IMG/VR virus record: IMGVR_UViG_3300030451_002458
Coordinates: 1-22,419 of that record
Length of the DNA stretch: 22,419 nucleotides
From: a virus
Strand: one strand, 5' to 3'
Shown here: piece after piece, positions 1,213 to 16,992 of the stretch
Numbering within the stretch: position 1 is the first letter of the stretch
How the letters are laid out: each line of letters opens with the position of its first letter
The notes under the pieces: model-generated
What the model was told of the DNA's origin: nothing
The model's database searches: none
Seen by the model: only the letters and a program-made list of their open reading frames with translations
Position numbers and translations under genes: made by a program

Positions 1213-1914
1213 CTACAAGAATATCTTCTGAGAGAGTCGATCTTCCTCCTCATACATCCCTGCCGTAATGAATGGTGCTTGTAATACATCTGCTGGTATA
1301 ATGATTGCTCTGTTATATTCCAATCCAAACATCATAGACTGTTTCCATGCAAGAACTGATTCATAAACATCTTTCCTGAGTGAGAAGGCATCAGCATCTG
1401 CGTACATGTTCTTCATGTCCTCATGAATAGTATTCTTACCAGCAAATGCCCAAATGTCAGTGCCACCCATTGAGGGCATATTTTTGTTGAGAAAAATTTC
1501 TACGGTAAATTGAAACGGACTTGGGTTTTCGGGATAGTAAGCCTGAAATGGTAAAAGTTGCAATGGTTGTTTAGCAACTGTGTCCTGATTCATCCAATCT
1601 ACCAAGAAAGGCATGACTGCCATATTCTTTTCAATATATTCCTGATCCGTTGGTCTACCCCAAAACTGCTCATCATAACATAGTTCTTTGAATAATCTCT
1701 CAGTATTTTTCCTTAACTCTTCTGTTTCATATACCGATCTTGTTCCTGAGTGATGATTTATAAGATTTATATCTTCTCTCTTTGGTAACTTAAATGCTAA
1801 CTCTCTAACCTTATCTGGATTTTTGTAAAAGTTATCTATCAACATAGCGTTCCTTTTTTCAGGTCCTATGTCAGTTATAGCAATAACTTCTAACTCATCA
1901 CTTAATTCAAACAT
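1213..1914 (-). CDS. Hypothetical protein, possible degenerate 2OG-oxygenase-like fold
   Basis: A 233-aa protein with AAGGA about 5 nt before its ATG; its start overlaps the upstream 62-aa gene by 8 nt. Residues about 25-42 (LIDNFYKNPDKVRELAF) match the pattern that opens many phage and marine bacterial 'NFY.dPd.VR..A' proteins (DUF6445-like, related to prolyl-4-hydroxylase-like jelly rolls). The end (NRAIIIPADVLQAPF... RLSQKIFL) matches the last two strands of that fold. I cannot find an HxD...H iron triad, so either it is not catalytic or the assignment is wrong. It lies a few genes from three clear oxygenases, which fits a diverged relative. The family call is tentative; the gene itself is secure because of length, spacing and ribosome binding site. 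Confidence 0.6.
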   Translation of the reverse strand: MFELSDELEVIAITDIGPEKRNAMLIDNFYKNPDKVRELAFKLPKREDINLINHHSGTRSVYETEELRKNTERLFKELCYDEQFWGRPTDQEYIEKNMAVMPFLVDWMNQDTVAKQPLQLLPFQAYYPENPSPFQFTVEIFLNKNMPSMGGTDIWAFAGKNTIHEDMKNMYADADAFSLRKDVYESVLAWKQSMMFGLEYNRAIIIPADVLQAPFITAGMYEEEDRLSQKIFL

Positions 1915-2095
1915 CTTTGTTCCTTTCTTCCACTAAATGTTCAACTTCTGAAGCAACTTTATCCATCACCTCTCTTACATCAGTTCCTGATCCAGAGGTA
2001 TGGTAGTAGTTTTGTCCTTTCGGAGCATAGTGTCTGGTGTGGAGTGTCCAATGCCACTGCTTTACACCCTTAGAATACCAGAATTGTAAACGCAT
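1907..2095 (-). CDS. Small hypothetical protein, 62 aa
   Basis: An aromatic- and histidine-rich small protein that begins MRLQFWYSKG and has a predicted C-terminal helix (DVREVMDKVASEVEHLVEE). The first half could form a beta-hairpin (FWYSKGVKQWHWTLHTR). There is a faint, unproven resemblance to DUF1508/YegP-like small domains, which have an 'aromatic-K-G-W-W/F-L' hairpin followed by 'SGxGY'. It is the first gene after the tmRNA and its terminator, and it overlaps the next gene by 8 nt in a different frame, which suggests translational coupling. A TATAAATT box lies just upstream. I do not recognise a function. Confidence 0.55.
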   Translation of the reverse strand: MRLQFWYSKGVKQWHWTLHTRHYAPKGQNYYHTSGSGTDVREVMDKVASEVEHLVEERNKDV

Positions 2096-2103
2096 AAAGT
2101 TTT

Positions 2104-2111
2104 AATTTATA
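2104..2111 (-). promoter_or_regulatory. Candidate late promoter (TATAAATT)
   Basis: The minus strand reads TATAAATT (one mismatch to TATAAATA) between the GC hairpin at 2119-2133 and the ATG at 2095. The ATG lies only 8 nt downstream, so a transcript from here would be almost leaderless. Alternatively this AT stretch may simply be the tail of the terminator. Confidence 0.3.
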
Positions 2112-2118
2112 TATGAAA

Positions 2119-2133
2119 GGGGGCAGAGCCCCC
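2119..2133 (-). terminator. GC-rich hairpin after tmRNA, possible terminator
   Basis: A perfect 6-bp stem GGGGGC / GCCCCC closes an UCU loop on the minus strand and is followed by UUUCAUAU. The U-tract is short, so termination may be partial. It could instead be a protective 3' structure of the tmRNA coding piece that is processed later. Confidence 0.45.
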
Positions 2134-2136
2134 TAT

Positions 2137-2162
2137 GGTCACTTGGTTAACAAGGAGTGACC
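2137..2162 (-). other. Stem-loop in 3' part of tmRNA coding piece
   Basis: GGTCACT (2162-2156) pairs with AGTGACC (2143-2137) over 7 bp, with a second possible short stem CTTG/CAAG inside. It follows the tag stop codon by 16 nt, where tmRNAs have PK2 or a related element. It is probably a structural part of the tmRNA rather than a separate signal. Confidence 0.5.
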
Positions 2163-2178
2163 GATCCCCGATTGCCCC

Positions 2179-2253
2179 TTAGGCAGTAGCGAGTTCGCTA
2201 GTGCGGGCAAATTCTCTTGTGAGAACACGAGAGAATGCTACGATGTTGTTCGC
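2179..2253 (-). other. tmRNA tag-peptide reading frame, 24 aa
   Basis: The resume codon is inferred as GCG (Ala) at 2253-2251, because from here the frame reads ANNIVAFSR, the hallmark start of cyanobacterial tags. Translation continues VLTREFAR, then TSELATA, and stops at TAA 2181-2179. Host tags that I recall are about 16 residues and end in VAA; this one is longer and ends ATA. The codons of the extension are the ones that build the hairpin 2187-2200. Confidence 0.7.
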
Positions 2254-2428
2254 AGCGGTGTCGATGTCTTTAGCATCTGTGTTTGCTCTCCGAGCAGGTT
2301 TTCAGTCATGCTCCTTATACCCTGTCGAAACCATTGCACCCCCTAGCTTATGGAGGTGAGGGGAGTCGAACCCCTGTCCAAAATATCGGTGGCACCACCT
2401 ACATGTCTTTTTAAGTCATACATCAGGA

Positions 2429-3016
2429 CTATACAATCCATTGTATCCAAGAATATCTAGATCCTTTTGTAACTGGAGTTACTTCATGTGGAAACAAATA
2501 CAGTGCTGGGAATACTAACACACCTCCCTTCTTTATGGTGACAGTATGTTCTTCCCAAAATACAAAATCACCACCTTCAAAGTCATCATTCAACACACCT
2601 ACTACACTTGTGACAGGTATGCCTCTGAACTGTCCTTGAAAGAAGTCACGAATATGATCGTAGTGAGGACTAAGATAATCGCCAACATTATACTTGTTGA
2701 ATTTTATACCCGAACTGGCTTCCCAAAATGAACCACCTCCACCAGACCCAACACTATAATAATTATATTTTTCATGGAAGGCATAATGCAACTCCTCATT
2801 TACATGTGGTTGTATTATAGATGTAGCCTCTGGGCAATCTACAGTTGATTGCATCTTTGAATCTTTGTCAAGATCAACCTGTTCATGATCTTGATACCAC
2901 ATGAAATCTCCCCACTGGCGAGAATCCAAATGAGAAACTATCTCATCACATTCCTGATGAGATAGCAAATCATATTCAAATATATGATCTTTAAGATTCG
3001 GGTACTTTAGGACCAT
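2429..3016 (-). CDS. 2OG-Fe(II) oxygenase (prolyl 4-hydroxylase type)
   Basis: A 195-aa protein with the full signature of the P4Hc family. H118 and D120 lie in SPHYDHIRD, H177 in LFPHEVTPV, and R187 in KGSRYS is the 2-oxoglutarate-binding arginine; GGDFVFW forms the typical strand between them. Such enzymes hydroxylate protein prolines or other residues using 2-oxoglutarate, O2 and Fe(II). T4-like cyanophages often carry several, with unknown substrates. It is the last protein gene before the tmRNA. Its start overlaps the end of a possible 49-51-aa ORF (2991-3146). Family assignment is firm; the substrate cannot be read from sequence. Confidence 0.88.
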   Translation of the reverse strand: MVLKYPNLKDHIFEYDLLSHQECDEIVSHLDSRQWGDFMWYQDHEQVDLDKDSKMQSTVDCPEATSIIQPHVNEELHYAFHEKYNYYSVGSGGGGSFWEASSGIKFNKYNVGDYLSPHYDHIRDFFQGQFRGIPVTSVVGVLNDDFEGGDFVFWEEHTVTIKKGGVLVFPALYLFPHEVTPVTKGSRYSWIQWIV

Positions 3017-3140
3017 CTTTTAGCACCTTACTACCAGTTTGTTTGGCAATATATGCCGCTAACTCTGGAGTTTCTTCCCATTCCCAGATTTGATTATGTT
3101 GTGGGTTCTTCTTTTGAATCGTGAGTGTGCGTTTTACCAA
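2991..3140 (-). CDS. Possible small protein with TTG start, about 49 aa
   Basis: The stretch 3017-3093 would otherwise be a gap between tightly packed genes. A minus-strand frame here encodes a plausible peptide (HNQIWEWEETPELAAYIAKQ, then TGSKVLKDGPKVPES) and stops at TAA 2993-2991, overlapping the next gene by 26 nt. It has no ATG. The best candidate start is TTG at 3140, preceded by a strong AGGGAGG about 7 nt upstream; a TTG at 3146 is the alternative. Its 5' third overlaps the end of the 100-aa gene in another frame. Amino-acid composition looks protein-like, but comparison with other cyanophages is needed to exclude chance. Confidence 0.45.
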   Translation of the reverse strand: MVKRTLTIQKKNPQHNQIWEWEETPELAAYIAKQTGSKVLKDGPKVPES

Positions 3141-3396
3141 TTTCAACCTCCCTAGTTAGTAATTCAATTTCTTTTTCAAGGCCAATAATCCTGAGTTCTG
3201 CATCATTAGCCGATCTCTCCAGTGCCCTTACTGAATGAGATATTTTTGCAATCTCTTTTCCAAAGGCATCAATGTTTTGGAGAAGTAAGTTATTTCCAAA
3301 TGACTGAGGGTGTCCCTGTTCTGCGTAGGCAGTATCTTCTACTTCCTCACATCTCTTGAGATATTCTTCTCTTGTCATTCGATTGTTTTCAGTCAT
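3094..3396 (-). CDS. Hypothetical coiled-coil protein, 100 aa
   Basis: A charged, probably all-helical protein. Residues about 45-87 (AFGKEIAKISHSVRALERS then NDAELRIIGLEKEIELLTREVE) show heptad-like spacing of I, L and V, indicating a coiled coil, and the C-terminus is short and polar. Its ATG overlaps the TGA of the upstream oxygenase-like gene by 4 nt (ATGA), a typical coupling. No domain is recognised. Location between oxygenase genes in the late operon gives no clear role; an oligomerising accessory protein is only a guess. Confidence 0.6.
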   Translation of the reverse strand: MTENNRMTREEYLKRCEEVEDTAYAEQGHPQSFGNNLLLQNIDAFGKEIAKISHSVRALERSANDAELRIIGLEKEIELLTREVEIGKTHTHDSKEEPTT

Positions 3397-3920
3397 GAGT
3401 AGTCCATGTAAATGTTTCCAGATATTGTAGTTCCCTCATTGCCTGAGTTTACCATGTGCATTAAGAATGATGGAAATATAATCATACTTCCAGGTCCTAA
3501 CTGCGGCTTATAGTCTAACGCAAACTGAGGTAAAGTGCAACCAAAGTGATTCTGAATGTTATGGATTGAAGGATTAAAGAAAGATGTTCTTGATGTCACA
3601 TCAACATAGATCACAAAACTCCACTGACTATGAGGGTGTATGTGAGCATCTTGATAGTCATGTTTTTGATAAACATTCTTCCATATATGTCCAAACCTAG
3701 CGTCCTTCCCCATCAATTGAGCTGGGTATAGGTTTCTCTCAACAACCTCTGACAAATATTGCCACACCGTTGTTGGAACCTCCTCTGGTTTTTGAGTTCC
3801 AAAACTAGAAGGAACTCCCGAATCCCACGTTGGTTCTAGTGGAGCAAAGGGGATATCTTCAAATTTACTAAGTTCAACCGTATCTTCAAAGATAGGGATA
3901 CTAAAGATTTCTTTTTTCAT
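3393..3920 (-). CDS. Putative 2OG-Fe(II) oxygenase, HxH-type
   Basis: A 175-aa protein. Its core (DAHIHPHSQWSFVIYVDV, residues 91-108) and later GPGSMIIFPSFLMHMVNSG (143-160) match the pattern of the TIGR02466 family of putative 2OG-Fe(II) oxygenases ('N.H.HP....G.YYV' and 'P..L.H.V'). Candidate iron ligands are H93 or H95 with H97, and H155. The usual 2OG-binding arginine near the end is not obvious (EGTTISGNI), so activity is less certain than for its neighbours. The start overlaps the upstream oxygenase stop by 4 nt (ATGA), so the two are likely co-translated. Confidence 0.72.
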   Translation of the reverse strand: MKKEIFSIPIFEDTVELSKFEDIPFAPLEPTWDSGVPSSFGTQKPEEVPTTVWQYLSEVVERNLYPAQLMGKDARFGHIWKNVYQKHDYQDAHIHPHSQWSFVIYVDVTSRTSFFNPSIHNIQNHFGCTLPQFALDYKPQLGPGSMIIFPSFLMHMVNSGNEGTTISGNIYMDYS

Positions 3921-4549
3921 TTTGAAGGTAGAGGATCAGTTCTCATTGTTTTATATACCAGACTCGCTCTGAGTCCACGATATACTTCATTTGGTGGCAT
4001 ACCATGATGCCAAATGTTTCCCTTAAAGAATACAATTCTGCCTGGGGCAGGGTCTACACCTTGCCACTCATCATTTAATTTATACTTTATTTGTCCTCCC
4101 CACTCTGGTGCCCAATGTTTATTGACATAGTAACAGAAACTGAGTCCGTTGTCACATGTACAATCTTGATGAGGCGTTGTATTATGTATCCACTGTTGTC
4201 CATTTATCATTATCTCTCCAAGTTCTACCTTGAATGGGAGAGTGTGCATAACTGCACTGTAGATCATTCTAAAAGCACTGTCCTGTGCAATGTCACTTCT
4301 TTCTGGCGGGAATATCTGTTGTTTTAAAGCTGGTGCTTCATCCCATGTAGGGTCTGCACCTACATCTCTACCATCTTCAGCATACCCACTGGTATGACCC
4401 CAGAACCAATTATATCCAGTCATCACCATATCATGTACATGATGAATGAACCAGCCTGGGAATAAGTTGTCTATAACATAGATTTCATCTTTAGATAGAT
4501 CATACTTTGACCAATCTAGAAACTCTCTATTTCCATCAATGTAAATCAT
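3917..4549 (-). CDS. 2OG-Fe(II) oxygenase
   Basis: A 210-aa protein with a clear facial triad: H127 and D129 in TPHQD, and H181 or H182 in NIWHHGMPP. R191 or R194 follows as the 2-oxoglutarate anchor. PGRIVFFKGNIWHHG is the classic double-stranded beta-helix end motif. The short N-terminal region (IYVIDNLFPGWF) is a typical family opening. It belongs to the diverse cyanophage oxygenase group; the product might be hydroxylated virion or host protein, but nothing in the sequence tells which. It overlaps the upstream gene by 14 nt and the downstream one by 4 nt. Confidence 0.85.
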   Translation of the reverse strand: MIYIDGNREFLDWSKYDLSKDEIYVIDNLFPGWFIHHVHDMVMTGYNWFWGHTSGYAEDGRDVGADPTWDEAPALKQQIFPPERSDIAQDSAFRMIYSAVMHTLPFKVELGEIMINGQQWIHNTTPHQDCTCDNGLSFCYYVNKHWAPEWGGQIKYKLNDEWQGVDPAPGRIVFFKGNIWHHGMPPNEVYRGLRASLVYKTMRTDPLPSK

Positions 4550-7352: not shown

Positions 7353-7916
7353 CTATAAGAAATCCTTAAATCTGTCTGCAAATGCTAGTATCATTCCCAA
7401 GAAACCTCCTTGTTTCTTGTCCGTCTGAGTTCCCAAACTGATCTCAACACCAGCACTAACATCAACAAAGTTTCCACCCATACTTAATTTACCCACACAT
7501 AATATATTCGCAGTGTTTCCTTCTAAGTTAGTTATTGGAGTTCTCACATAAAGTTGTCCAGTAACATCAACGGTCATCTCATTATCAACTTCAAATCTAA
7601 CATTTCTCGCCTTTATAGTCAAGTCTCCGTCTTGAACATCAATCAACATATCTCCATACTTACAAGCGATGTTCTTCGCCAAAGAACCTTTCTTTGTTCT
7701 TAATCCTACAGTTTCATATGAACAATCATTGACAACTAATTTTTGTGTGCCATCTTTATAAAATGCAATTCCCTGCCCTTCATCTGTGACCATTGAGTAG
7801 TCGATGGTTTTACCTTTTAAATCACCTTTGGTTATAGGGAATCCAGACGCTACCCTAAATCCAGGCACGTTTTTATAATACTGTTTGGTATTTTTCTTTT
7901 GAGTGTTATCTGACAT
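7353..7916 (-). CDS. Beta-rich baseplate/spike protein, possible detached gp5 C-terminal beta-helix
   Basis: A 187-aa protein coupled to the gp5-like gene by TAATG. Residues ~85-160 are a run of short strands with regular alternation (GDMLIDVQDGDLTIKARN, then NEMTVDVTGQLYV, NILCVGKLSMGG, NFVDVSAGVEISL), like the repeats of triple-stranded beta-helices such as the T4 gp5 C-terminal needle. The C-terminus has a hydrophobic stretch (GFLGMILAFADRF). The upstream gp5-like protein ends in low-complexity sequence rather than a beta-helix, so this gene could supply the needle as a separate chain. That is inference; the strand repeat is what can be seen. Confidence 0.6.
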   Translation of the reverse strand: MSDNTQKKNTKQYYKNVPGFRVASGFPITKGDLKGKTIDYSMVTDEGQGIAFYKDGTQKLVVNDCSYETVGLRTKKGSLAKNIACKYGDMLIDVQDGDLTIKARNVRFEVDNEMTVDVTGQLYVRTPITNLEGNTANILCVGKLSMGGNFVDVSAGVEISLGTQTDKKQGGFLGMILAFADRFKDFL

Positions 7917-10900
7917 TAGTATCCGCCTCCGTAGCCTCCGCCACCCGATCCGCCAGACCCGCCACCACCAGCAGGAGGAGGACTAGGAGGAGGAGTGCTT
8001 GGTGGAGTTGGTGGCGGAGTTGGTTGTTGAGGAGTTGTTGGTTGAGTTGTTTGCTGAGGTGTGTTATTGATTGTTGGAGTTGTATCAGCAACACTTGTGT
8101 CAGGCTGACTCGTTGTAGTGGTGTCGGGAACATTAGTAGTTTCAGTGGTCTGAGGAGATTGATTGTTTGCTGGTTCACTTGGAGGAACATAGTTTGATCT
8201 CACTGGTTGACCAAGACTTTCCTCTTTAGTATTGTATATTGTATCATGTGGGGTGTTCACATGGAAAGCACCGACCATCTTACGTCCTGTTGCTGGATGG
8301 AAGTGGAAAGGTCCAAAGTATGGGTTTCCGTTGACCCAACCAATTTGTTTCTTAGGTAAACTGTAAACACAATCAACCACCTTAACAAATAGATTTCCAC
8401 CAGCTTTCGCACCATCAGGAATTGGTATTCCTCCACCACCAAATCCACCGTCAATGGAAGGTCTAGCTCCACTATCTGCAACAAAATTAGGACTGTAGGA
8501 GATTATCGGTATTAGTTGAGCACCTCTTCCTGTCCTTGTATTTAGTGTGACTTCTGGGATTGACTTATGTTTATCTTGACAGTTTATATTGTTAATTCCG
8601 ACTATAGATCCAGCTGGAGTTACGACTAAATCAAATGTACAAGCACCAACTTGTCCAGAGTCTCCTGACGTATATCCAATGCCAGGTCTGTATGGTATGA
8701 GACTTGTAACAATACCTACTGCCTCACTACCTATTCCAGAAATTCCTCTAGTCGTAAAGTTATAAGTATCAGTTCTCGCCAAACCAGCGAAAGAGTTATC
8801 TGCAAGGTCTTTGAATGAACCCTCAGACATTGAAATATAGTATTCAGTATTGAATTTAAGATCATTCTTTGGATCAACTTTGATGATTCTGTCGGATAAG
8901 AATGATATCCTGTTGTTTTTTATATTGATTCTTTCATGTACAACATTGCTCACGGATTCTGTAATGACTACTTCTCCTACACCTTTTACAATAGGTTCGT
9001 TAAAAGTTATTGAAAGAGATGCAGATGTCTGAACACCAACAGCATCATCAGCTGGAGTTGTAAATGTAATGTATGGAGGAACATCCTCTGATCCCTCTAT
9101 TGGAGTAGGACCTTCTGTTACAGGATACTTTGGAGGAATGACATTAGTTGCTATACAGTATCCAGACCCAGCAGAGAGCATGTAAACATCAACAACTTTT
9201 CCTTCATCATCTATAATTGCCTCGGCCTTAGCACCACCACCCTTTCGAGTTTTATCTACAATGGTAATTGTTGGTGGTTCTGTGTAGTTTCTGCCTGGCT
9301 CTGTAATCTCCAGTGTTAGTATGCTTCCATCCTCAGATGATACGATTGGAACTAATGCAGCAGTTTTAGTTCCGTCACCATGAACTTCTACTTTTGGAGG
9401 AATACACTCTGACCAAAAGAATCCAGGCGGGATACCATGACCAAGATCATCTTGAGTCTTTGGACTTTGAGTTTTATTATTGCAATCGAAGAACTCAGGT
9501 ATTCCACCACCCATCATACTGAGGATAGAGAATCTTGCTCTCGCATCATATACTCCTGTTCCGTCTTCATTATCTCCTGAGAAACTAGCACTATCAGCAA
9601 ATTGTTCTAGTCCCTTCAACACTTCCATATTATCTAAAACACTACTCATCTTAGTAGCTGGTTTTGTGTTTAGACCCATACCCTGTGTCCAATCTTCATA
9701 TTCTTTACATGCTAAACCAGTACAATTTAAGAATGATAGTATCATATTAATATAACTACTGATCTTACCTAACAGACCACCGATACTACCTAGAGCACCC
9801 ATCAACCAATCTAATCCGTCTAGTATTGGTCCTAATAATCTAGTCAAACTATCATATATGCCTCCCAAAAGGTTGGCTATGGCCTGTTCGATGGCACAAA
9901 CTGTAGGGTTAATTGCTTTACCTACCATGTTCAACAACATATCTTTCAACATGTCGAACAAGTCCTCAAAACTGGTGTCAAACAAACAGAATATGATGTC
10001 TATAATTTTTTGTAGAGCCTTAGACACCATAGGTTTTTGTGGTTCTGGAACTATGAGTGCCTGTAATTTTCTGAATATACCCGATAGAAGTTTTGTTATC
10101 TTATCTCTAATCTTATTCATTATCTTCTTTATCGCAGCACTAATCAACCTAGTAAACTTGTTGACTATTCTCTTTATGTCTCCGATAAGATTATTGGCAG
10201 CATCAATATACACCCCAGCAAACTCCGTCAATGAGTTTACTGTGGTTAGGAAACTACCTAACTTTGTTGCTATGTCTGCTATGGGATCTTTACCACAACC
10301 ATCGTCTCTAGTATGAGGTCCTAATTGTGTGTTATTAAAGTTATTAGTTGCAGCATCTTCCTTAAATCCACCTTCTGTTTCTCCACTTCCATCTTCTTCC
10401 TGTTGTTTTTCTTCCTCTATTTCACCAGCTTTGTTCTCAGCGTTTTCCTCTGGTGTCGCTACTGGTTTCTCTTCTGCTATAAATTCAGTGGTAGGTTGAT
10501 AATCAAATATTTTACCAGTTACAACACCAAAGGCATTTTCCTCTGACGTTGCTATACTCTCTCCCTCTTGTATGGTACTGCCTTGATAATTTCCATAACT
10601 TTCTGGTGGTTTCTCAAAGTTTGCAGGACCAAAATCTTTGTTTACGTTTCTTGCTAAAGCACCAAAAATTACTGGTTGTTGTGCTTCCTCTCCATCCAAA
10701 AAGAAACCAAAGACAGTTTCTCCACCAACCATGCTAGAACTCTCACCCAACATTCCTTGTCCAGCACCTTTAGAGGCATCCACCAAAACATGAGCCCAAG
10801 GCAGATCCTCATCAGGTAAAATGTTCTTGGAAAATGAATGAAATCCTATTATTCTAACTTTACATCTAAATGCCCAGCCCTCTTCTAGATCAGTAGACTT

Positions 10901-10996
10901 GTCTCTCCAAACATCAGGAGGAGCAACTTGTCCAATCCACCATACGAATCCATCTCGTCCAACAAAGTTGGTCTGTAAAAGAGCACTGTCTAACAT
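7916..10996 (-). CDS. 5: Baseplate hub protein, gp5-like OB-fold protein without lysozyme domain
   Basis: A 1026-aa protein. Residues 1-118 resemble the gp5 N-terminal OB domain (VRIIGFHSFSKNILPDEDLP, then WAHVL, VFGFFLDGEEAQQPVIFGAL). An acidic linker (~140-215) leads to a long amphipathic helical region (~240-440). Next come a beta repeat around 545-615 (ITEPGRNYTEPPTITIV), a Big_5/SwmB-like Ig domain at ~639-749, a second beta repeat around 762-835, and a histidine-rich segment at 886-920 (GPFHFHPATGRKM). The tail is Thr/Gln/Pro-rich (940-1008) and ends Gly-rich (1010-1026). T4 gp5 is 575 aa with a lysozyme after the OB domain; no such domain is present, and a transglycosylase domain occurs two genes upstream instead. 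Start and stop are both TAATG-coupled. Confidence 0.8.
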   Translation of the reverse strand: MLDSALLQTNFVGRDGFVWWIGQVAPPDVWRDKSTDLEEGWAFRCKVRIIGFHSFSKNILPDEDLPWAHVLVDASKGAGQGMLGESSSMVGGETVFGFFLDGEEAQQPVIFGALARNVNKDFGPANFEKPPESYGNYQGSTIQEGESIATSEENAFGVVTGKIFDYQPTTEFIAEEKPVATPEENAENKAGEIEEEKQQEEDGSGETEGGFKEDAATNNFNNTQLGPHTRDDGCGKDPIADIATKLGSFLTTVNSLTEFAGVYIDAANNLIGDIKRIVNKFTRLISAAIKKIMNKIRDKITKLLSGIFRKLQALIVPEPQKPMVSKALQKIIDIIFCLFDTSFEDLFDMLKDMLLNMVGKAINPTVCAIEQAIANLLGGIYDSLTRLLGPILDGLDWLMGALGSIGGLLGKISSYINMILSFLNCTGLACKEYEDWTQGMGLNTKPATKMSSVLDNMEVLKGLEQFADSASFSGDNEDGTGVYDARARFSILSMMGGGIPEFFDCNNKTQSPKTQDDLGHGIPPGFFWSECIPPKVEVHGDGTKTAALVPIVSSEDGSILTLEITEPGRNYTEPPTITIVDKTRKGGGAKAEAIIDDEGKVVDVYMLSAGSGYCIATNVIPPKYPVTEGPTPIEGSEDVPPYITFTTPADDAVGVQTSASLSITFNEPIVKGVGEVVITESVSNVVHERINIKNNRISFLSDRIIKVDPKNDLKFNTEYYISMSEGSFKDLADNSFAGLARTDTYNFTTRGISGIGSEAVGIVTSLIPYRPGIGYTSGDSGQVGACTFDLVVTPAGSIVGINNINCQDKHKSIPEVTLNTRTGRGAQLIPIISYSPNFVADSGARPSIDGGFGGGGIPIPDGAKAGGNLFVKVVDCVYSLPKKQIGWVNGNPYFGPFHFHPATGRKMVGAFHVNTPHDTIYNTKEESLGQPVRSNYVPPSEPANNQSPQTTETTNVPDTTTTSQPDTSVADTTPTINNTPQQTTQPTTPQQPTPPPTPPSTPPPSPPPAGGGGSGGSGGGGYGGGY

Positions 10997-11223
10997 TAGT
11001 CGTCATACACCAAACATTCTGGTTCGTCTGGGTGCATATCGCAGAATAGTTCTAGTGCATTAGGATCATGGTGATCGCCAGCGGCAATCTCTTCTTTGTG
11101 ATGTTCTGCATAGATTTCTAGTTCCTCTAATTCTACTTTCGCATGTCTGCGAGCAGCAGGGTTTGCTAAAGGATCTTCTGCAATTTTCCTATCTTTTTCG
11201 ATGTGTTTTTCTATACTTTCCAT
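10996..11223 (-). CDS. CP12-like Calvin-cycle regulator homologue, 75 aa
   Basis: An ATG at 11223 is chosen over the ATG at 11247 because AAGGAG (11235-11230) lies 6 nt before it; this leaves a 10-nt gap to the upstream stop and gives 75 aa, the usual CP12 size. The C-terminus (LELFCDMHPDEPECLVYDD) reproduces the CP12 signature C-x8-C followed by '(R/L)VYDD' (C61 and C70). The middle (VELEELEIYAEHHKEE) aligns with CP12 'AWD.VEEL.AEAAH'. CP12 bridges phosphoribulokinase and GAPDH to switch off the Calvin cycle, and cyanophages are known to carry cp12. Here the N-terminal cysteine pair is absent and the core AWD is replaced, so PRK/GAPDH binding may be altered. It lies inside the baseplate hub operon, TAATG-coupled to gp5. 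Confidence 0.72.
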   Translation of the reverse strand: MESIEKHIEKDRKIAEDPLANPAARRHAKVELEELEIYAEHHKEEIAAGDHHDPNALELFCDMHPDEPECLVYDD

Positions 11224-11233
11224 AGGTTTCTCC

Positions 11234-12622
11234 TTATTGTATTCCATAAGAATCTCTTACGAGATTTAGAGCAGATACGTTCCGCCCTTCAGTAATTTCA
11301 AAATGATGTCTCAAACTACGAATTAAGTAGATTCCGCTTAGTTCCTGATCAGATTCTTTTGTTCCAGTTCCACCTGATTCCTCAGGTCCAACTTTAGGGA
11401 AAATTAGTCTAATCGGTGTACCAACTCTCAAGTTAATATTACATGGTATAGTTATATTTAGGGACTGTTGGAACAGCAATGTGTATCTAGAGAACGACTT
11501 TGCCATGTCAGAAATGGTTCTACCAGAACCTTTTTCGTTCAATTCGTGATCCCACATTCCCGAATCACCCAACCTTACTAATACTCTTGAGGCGAATTTT
11601 GTTATATCACCTTGGGGTATAGGAACAGAGTCGCCAGCAGTCTTTATGTTGGCTTCCTCAATTTCCTTTGCTAAGTTAAATTGTATTGCATCTGCTTTCC
11701 AGTTTAACGGATCATAGAAATATGTCAAGTTACTGTAAAGACCAACTCTTAAATTTTTCTGTAGATTAGTAGTCTTGTCAGTATAATGATTGATAATCTG
11801 TTTTTCATTCTCACTACCATCTCTGCTTATCATACCAGAATATGTGTATGTTTCTACGCCATACTCTTTTGATAGATCCTGAGAAGTTATATCTTCTGGG
11901 TATTCTACTTGTGTGGCATCTATCATTTTATCCACGGATCTAAAATTAAATCCATCATAGTCTTCGTAGAAAAAGAATCCAGCAGTTCCTTTTGCCTGAC
12001 TACCAGCCTCACCTGTAGCATTACCTGTCACAGGCACCGCCTTTGGGCATAACCATGTACAAGTATAAAATGCCTTTTTATTGTTTCCTATGAATCCATA
12101 TTCAGTGGCAGATGGTTCTATCTTCTTTATTCTTGCTTCATCAACCTCAAGTATATCCTTTAATATTGTCTCTACATGAGAACTGATTTGTGCTCTGGGG
12201 AATCTATTTCTACATCTGACAGTTTCATTCTTCAAGTTTTCTAGTGTACAACACTTAAGTGTGAATATCTCCTGTCCTTCCGTCTGTGTTAATCTTTCAA
12301 TGGCAACAACATACAGTGGATTTTCATTTGAATCACCAAATGTTATATCACCGTAATCAGTTCCAATAACTATATCTATTCTCTCATATCCTCTGATAGG
12401 AACTAAACTATACAATGCTTGAGTAGTAGATATTTTTAAGTCTACTGTAATAGAGGGTGATAGTATATCCTCATAATAATCGAATGACACCACAGAGGCA
12501 GTAATATCAAGATTATCTACCTCTCTCTTTTCTTCATCTTTTGACCCACCCTTCTTGAAAATAATCTTATTTTCTGGGGTTATTATTATTCTTTTGAAGT
12601 GAGTTTTTAAGAGTGATGACAT
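11234..12622 (-). CDS. 27: Baseplate hub protein, gp27-like
   Basis: A 462-aa protein directly upstream of the gp5-like gene in the hub cluster. It begins with a beta-rich domain (DITASVVSFDYYEDILSPSI, then TVDLKIS... LVPIRGYERIDIVIGT) typical of tail hub proteins of the gp27/gpD fold. It ends with a second beta domain (QSLNITIPCNINLRVGTPIR, then SGIYLIRSLRHHFE), a pattern common to hub proteins ('..V.G..I.l.fp... G.YLI..l.H.f'). T4 gp27 is 391 aa. In the virion, gp27 trimers adapt the six-fold tube to the three-fold gp5 spike. The start is TAATG-coupled to the transglycosylase gene. Identity rests on these patterns and on context. Confidence 0.65.
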   Translation of the reverse strand: MSSLLKTHFKRIIITPENKIIFKKGGSKDEEKREVDNLDITASVVSFDYYEDILSPSITVDLKISTTQALYSLVPIRGYERIDIVIGTDYGDITFGDSNENPLYVVAIERLTQTEGQEIFTLKCCTLENLKNETVRCRNRFPRAQISSHVETILKDILEVDEARIKKIEPSATEYGFIGNNKKAFYTCTWLCPKAVPVTGNATGEAGSQAKGTAGFFFYEDYDGFNFRSVDKMIDATQVEYPEDITSQDLSKEYGVETYTYSGMISRDGSENEKQIINHYTDKTTNLQKNLRVGLYSNLTYFYDPLNWKADAIQFNLAKEIEEANIKTAGDSVPIPQGDITKFASRVLVRLGDSGMWDHELNEKGSGRTISDMAKSFSRYTLLFQQSLNITIPCNINLRVGTPIRLIFPKVGPEESGGTGTKESDQELSGIYLIRSLRHHFEITEGRNVSALNLVRDSYGIQ

Positions 12623-16275: not shown

Positions 16276-16964
16276 AGTATAACAGTGTTCTTTTTCTTGG
16301 TGTTTGGATTAACTACTTCTAATGTATGTTGTAATTTAGGCATAGTTTGGAAGAATTTTTCAATCTTTGCAAACTGTGCTGATGTTAATGACTCGACCCA
16401 TTCTTTAAGTTCTTTCTTAGTACACTCAGAAGCTGAGAACATCTCCTCTTCATTATATACCATATCAATGCAAGATCCTATAATACTAAATGATTGATCA
16501 ACTGTATCTTGGTTATCTAAAAAGTTAGTGTCAATAAACTGACTAAGAGAAGGATACTTCATCTTGACAGTATATCCATCTGCCAATTCAATATCTGTTG
16601 TATGATCCTCTGCTGTTATCACTTTAATATCATTGATTGGAACATTAACTCCAACCTCAGTTTTTCCATCATCACCACATGTAATTAAAAGATCTATTGA
16701 TTCACCAACAGATTTACCACGGATATTTAAAAACAAATATTCAATGTCAAAGGCAGGGAGAGTATCAATTTTGATTCCCTTTGTCAAAACACATTCTTTG
16801 ATTACTTGTTTTACAGCATTTGTGATCTCTTTCTGATTTTGTCCTTCTAATGCAAGTATCAGTATCTTTTCTTCTTTTACCAAGAACGGTCTATACTTTA
16901 CAGTCTTTCCGTTTGAAGGTAATACCAATTCATACTCAGAAGTCGTAATTTTAGGTAAAGGCAT
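16248..16964 (-). CDS. 26: gp26-like baseplate hub/tail assembly protein
   Basis: A 238-aa protein (T4 gp26 is 208 aa). The start (PLPKITTSEYELVLPSNGKT then VKYRPFLVKEEKILILALEG) and the helical second half (ECTKKELKEWVESLTSAQFA) match the 'T4 bacteriophage base plate protein' family (gp26). In T4, gp26 is needed for hub assembly; the position before a tape measure suggests a lambda gpG-like chaperone role. The last codons GAT TTT TTC GCC TAG carry the slippery site for the fusion with the 63-aa ORF. There is no clear Shine-Dalgarno, and a TCTAAATA box lies 20 nt before the ATG. Upstream gp54 ends only 37 nt away, so this may be a separate late transcription unit. Confidence 0.8.
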   Translation of the reverse strand: MPLPKITTSEYELVLPSNGKTVKYRPFLVKEEKILILALEGQNQKEITNAVKQVIKECVLTKGIKIDTLPAFDIEYLFLNIRGKSVGESIDLLITCGDDGKTEVGVNVPINDIKVITAEDHTTDIELADGYTVKMKYPSLSQFIDTNFLDNQDTVDQSFSIIGSCIDMVYNEEEMFSASECTKKELKEWVESLTSAQFAKIEKFFQTMPKLQHTLEVVNPNTKKKNTVILEGLADFFA

Positions 16965-16984: not shown

Positions 16985-16992
16985 TATTTAGA
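16985..16992 (-). promoter_or_regulatory. Candidate late promoter (TCTAAATA) before gp26
   Basis: TCTAAATA (one mismatch to T4 late TATAAATA) on the minus strand in the 36-nt gap between gp54 and gp26. It is followed 11 nt later by TTACATATTATG, which contains the start codon. The same arrangement precedes gp4 on the other strand. Confidence 0.45.

Follow-up and report, generated by a model that had tools for sequence, protein, structure and literature searches.

A cyanomyovirus cp12 between the baseplate hub genes of an uncultured S-SSM7-like phage, very probably an ordinary auxiliary metabolic gene

CP12 is a conditionally disordered protein with which hosts switch off carbon fixation, and its phage-borne gene is a central exhibit for viral redirection of ocean carbon fixation. 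Studies have shown that 15 of 16 cyanomyoviruses carry cp12 and that talC and cp12 lie either near psbA or near gp5 (Sullivan et al. 2010, PMC3037559). The class diversity of cyanobacterial CP12 has been reviewed together with the cyanophage forms (PMC3906501). The order T4-GC15 (the gp27-like tail protein), CP12, gp5 is found in S-SSM7, S-SM2, S-RSM4, and SynMITS9220M01. In P-SSM4 (PSSM4_018), S-SM1 (SSM1_018), Syn9, P-TIM40, and P-RSM6, cp12 occupies the same slot after T4-GC15, with extra genes (cpeT, small ORFs or tRNA) before gp5, cpeT being among them in P-SSM4 and S-SM1. The gene in this slot is annotated as CP12 (T4-GC 337) in the cultured phages S-SSM7, P-SSM4, S-SM1, and S-SM2. The orthologue of P-HM2 (PHM2_227) has the same GAPDH loop but is 70 aa long and stands beside talC, outside the hub operon; cp12 is also beside talC in P-HM1.

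In this study, we analysed the cp12 gene of a 22,419-nucleotide stretch of viral DNA (IMG/VR record IMGVR_UViG_3300030451_002458), hereafter the window. The nearest cultured relative is S-SSM7 (GU071098), which is colinear over the whole window, with 83% DNA identity in the part that can be aligned (38%). Its CP12 (SSSM7_015, 75 aa) lies in the same gene order with small gaps and is 69% identical to ours; it differs in the remaining 31% of residues and in a 6-nt gap between cp12 and gp5 in place of the TAATG overlap. We believe that the window gene is very probably a host-derived auxiliary metabolic gene, the ordinary cp12 of cyanomyoviruses, whose product would inhibit host GAPDH. Gene and locus have already been described, and the window adds an uncultured S-SSM7-like example; our only additions to their description are a host-lineage explanation of the sequence and a promoter pattern.

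The gene is read on the minus strand from an ATG at 11223-11221 to a TAA at 10998-10996 (Table 1). An 83-aa form starting at 11247 was also considered, and the 75-aa start was favoured because an AAGGAG motif is spaced 6 nt ahead of its ATG; the phrog_627 profile aligns to residues 1-75 of this form. The protein begins MESIEKHIEKD and ends in CDMHPDEPECLVYDD (full sequence MESIEKHIEKDRKIAEDPLANPAARRHAKVELEELEIYAEHHKEEIAAGDHHDPNALELFCDMHPDEPECLVYDD). The original prediction had described a 75-aa ORF with a C-x8-C-LVYDD signature and without the N-terminal cysteine pair and the AWD core, and all of this was confirmed; the protein has two cysteines in total. The predicted core motif is present as well, but what had been given as VEEL reads VELEEL.

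Table 1. Features of the cp12 region in the window
Feature	Position	Strand	Basis or remark
cp12: 75-aa CP12-domain protein (T4-GC 337 / phrog_627)	10996..11223	(-)	stop TAA included
cp12 ribosome-binding site AAGGAG	11230..11235	(-)	read from sequence; overlaps gp27-like gene end
TAATG: cp12 stop overlapping gp5 start	10994..10998	(-)	sequence
gp27-like tail protein (T4-GC 15 / phrog_350), upstream of cp12	11234..12622	(-)	phrog_350 E 3e-98
gp5-like baseplate hub / tail lysozyme, downstream of cp12	7916..10996	(-)	phrog_1922 E 3e-152 + Pfam Gp5_OB
late-promoter-like core (CTAAATA context)	16985..16990	(-)	motif scan, consensus match only

The HMM search that had been suggested along with the CP12 assignment matched PF02672 (CP12) at 52.3 bits (E 9.7e-14, profile 3-70 of 70), against a cut-off of 22.7 bits, and the PHROG profiles gave phrog_627 at E 7e-37. 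Both agree with the assignment, and membership in the CP12 family is far beyond chance. CP12 chains in the PDB (6gfo and others, E 2.5e-4) align to residues 4-75, including the GAPDH-binding C-terminus. With tblastn, the window CP12 matched 434 phage records, 384 of them with a query coverage of 80% or more. The good matches were cyanophages, in which the protein is labelled CP12, 'carbon metabolic regulator' or hypothetical; identity was 73% to P-RSM6, 72% to the 'CP12' of P-SSM4, and 69% to that of S-SSM7.

Canonical CP12 of plants and Thermosynechococcus (PDB 6gve, 3b1j) has a C-terminal GAPDH-binding hairpin that can be aligned to the window CP12, but it also has an N-terminal cysteine pair and/or an AWD_VEEL PRK-binding motif, which the phage and its hosts lack. 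By the measure of the green lineage, the window protein is therefore without both the pair used for PRK docking and the AWD_VEEL core, and the original prediction had offered a repurposed CP12 as one reading. We compared it with 31 chromosomal CP12s, all distinct sequences, from the family of a Prochlorococcus genome. C-x8-C and exactly two cysteines were found in 31/31 and AWD in 0/31; because all of the sampled host-family proteins lack both the N-terminal pair and AWD, their absence is not a phage loss, and repurposing argued from sequence loss was ruled out. The chromosomal CP12 of Prochlorococcus and marine Synechococcus (72 aa) likewise has two cysteines and C-x8-C-xVYDD. It differs from the phage form in a shorter linker (YKEHHPEDKHDPN vs YAEHHKEEIAAGDHHDPN in phage) and in forming a separate host clade. 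The window protein is thus a C-type CP12 of the host lineage, and its odd-looking features were inherited from there.

In Synechocystis, the effect in vivo depends on the C-terminal (GAPDH) pair, and CP12 lacking the N-terminal pair gives nearly full complementation; CP12 of S. elongatus likewise has no N-terminal cysteine pair (PMC9623430). The expected target of the phage protein is therefore GAPDH, not PRK. In the mechanism that we propose, the oxidised C-terminal hairpin (C-x8-C-LVYDD) would bind host Gap2 (GAPDH) near the NADPH site and lower the flux through the Calvin cycle; the phage could then draw on NADPH and pentose phosphates to make its nucleotides. Strong redox-gated recruitment of PRK is unlikely because the N-terminal pair and the AWD core are missing, as in the hosts, and GAPDH would probably be the main target.

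In Prochlorococcus sp. AG-402-N21 (QCIW01000013.1, L093:6001-6234), the chromosomal CP12 lies beside obgE as in other hosts and is mosaic. Nucleotides 1-108 are host-like (best host 81%, best phage 57%). At nucleotides 130-165, the linker is phage-like (best phage 94%, best host 76%) and of the longer phage type (KEEIEAGDHHDPN). This pattern suggests phage-host exchange within cp12.

Over its C-terminal 25 residues, the window CP12 has a mean identity of 95% with other hub copies, 99% with talC-located copies, and 81% with hosts; over the first 50 residues, the values are 78%, 76%, and 44%, respectively. Pairwise dN/dS on these related sequences (Nei-Gojobori) was ~0.08 in hub copies and ~0.05 in talC-located copies, and C-x8-C was kept in 69/69 hub copies. 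The divergence of the N-terminal half from canonical CP12 might be taken as the mark of a degenerate, non-functional remnant kept by linkage to gp5. This reading is already contradicted by the low dN/dS and stands against the invariant C-x8-C and an N-terminal half that matches the host form in layout, and we give it almost no credence. In the tree (75 columns, weakly resolved), hub and talC copies were intermixed and the hosts formed one clade (99/90); a distinct hub clade was accordingly rejected.

The original prediction had placed cp12 between a gp27-like and a gp5-like gene with a TAATG junction. Both neighbours were identified by their PHROG profiles, and the overlap is real. A spacer of 10 nt separates cp12 from the end of the gp27-like gene, and the TAATG is expected to couple its translation to that of gp5. 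The same junction is common to most close relatives, with a TGATG version in SynMITS9220M01. The location had also been considered unusual; in fact, it is a standard and published cp12 position in cyanomyoviruses ('near gp5', PMC3037559). A further cp12 of canonical type, for which the original prediction had suggested looking, was not found in complete relatives: there is one copy each in S-SSM7, P-SSM4, P-RSM6, P-HM2, Syn9, S-RSM4, and SynMITS9220M01, from which the copy number was taken, the window being a 22.4-kb fragment.

It had further been proposed that the protein is a hub accessory, that is, a CP12 repurposed to assist assembly of the gp27-like/gp5 hub or to be part of the virion. 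Tight junctions on both sides, the TAATG coupling and the long persistence of cp12 at the hub across many genera are in line with such a role. However, in P-HM2, T4-GC15 overlaps gp5 directly with no cp12 between them and cp12 stands at talC, which indicates that the hub operon can do without CP12 and CP12 without the hub operon. Moreover, hub and talC copies form no separate groups and share the same GAPDH loop, and the slot is also taken by other accessory genes (cpeT, speD) and tRNAs. T4-GC15 is a known virion protein, found in S-SM1 virions (PMC3037559). GenBank notes liken T4-GC15 and gp5, not CP12, to virion proteins of S-SM1, and in the Syn9 record it is the upstream neighbour, not gp17, that is called 'structural'; the GenBank notes are weak evidence because a virion protein of 75 aa could easily escape mass spectrometry. 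Insertions between T4-GC15 and gp5 are common, and a place in this slot is no sign of a virion function. Repurposing and hub function are not supported by any positive evidence, and we consider a hub accessory very unlikely. It is also highly improbable that CP12 is made with the hub, travels in or on the virion, and enters the cell on infection; in that case, the Calvin cycle would be hit before phage gene expression starts.

Hub-located cp12 was also met on cyanophage DNA inside assemblies labelled Euryarchaeota, Nonlabens, Rhodopirellula, and Anaerolineales (L086, L087, L088, L089, L091, L092), almost certainly as contaminating or co-binned phage contigs. Elsewhere in the window, at 1213-4549 (-), small ORFs resemble by eye 2OG-Fe(II) oxygenase or related phage accessory genes.

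With an ordinary metabolic cp12 as the preferred reading, the timing of its expression was considered from promoters. The late-promoter core of cyanophages, NATAAATA (PMC2984593), was scored as TAAATA. This motif occurred at -15 to -60 of cp12 in 42/73 non-redundant hub loci and 6/6 talC or other loci, always between -40 and -21, against ~0.03 per locus expected by chance; the loci are related and were chosen as best matches to the window, so the counts are not independent. It stood ~25-32 nt before cp12 in 33/33 hub loci where the gp27-like gene and cp12 are 20 nt or more apart, and was present in 9/39 where they are closer. Distinct cultured phages (P-SSM4, P-RSM6, S-SM1, P-TIM40, Syn9, S-RSM4, and P-HM2) share the motif, as do many IMG/VR loci. 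P-SSM4 and S-SM1 thus differ from the window, since the window clade has none at -15 to -60 of cp12, and both the window and S-SSM7 lack it. In the tight clade, a TAAATA near -235 was set aside because it falls within the gp27-like coding sequence. The nearest well-placed candidate promoter for the hub operon in the window is the core at 16990; the hub-side gene run begins 26 nt further on, with the gene at 16964. Since it has no nearby promoter to itself, the cp12 of the window clade is probably transcribed by read-through of the hub operon.

Late, operon-driven expression of cp12 is plausible in the window clade from this arrangement. We speculated further that a functional CP12 made late through its hub position would block the Calvin cycle chiefly during assembly and not during DNA replication. 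The likely read-through from a late operon, the late-type core ahead of the operon, and the cores close to cp12 in other hub phages all point that way. On the other hand, the same core precedes the talC-located cp12 of P-HM2, which is highly expressed and falls in the middle cluster by RNA-seq (PMC5082946), the only temporal data on cp12 that we found in the literature, and middle expression in cyanomyoviruses is thought to combine overlapping early and late promoters (PMC2984593). Late expression in the window is unproven for these two reasons, and we regard a block confined mainly to assembly as possible but rather doubtful. The pattern suggests a split between many cyanophages with their own late-type core for cp12 and a window clade on hub-operon read-through, which bears on when in infection the Calvin cycle is inhibited.

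Finally, cyanophage S-RIM44 has a short ORF beside thyX (L107:2986-3216) that matches the C-terminal half of CP12 only, at 20.3 bits, below the cut-off. S-RIM44 gave no other match to CP12, and the ORF may encode a divergent GAPDH-loop protein.
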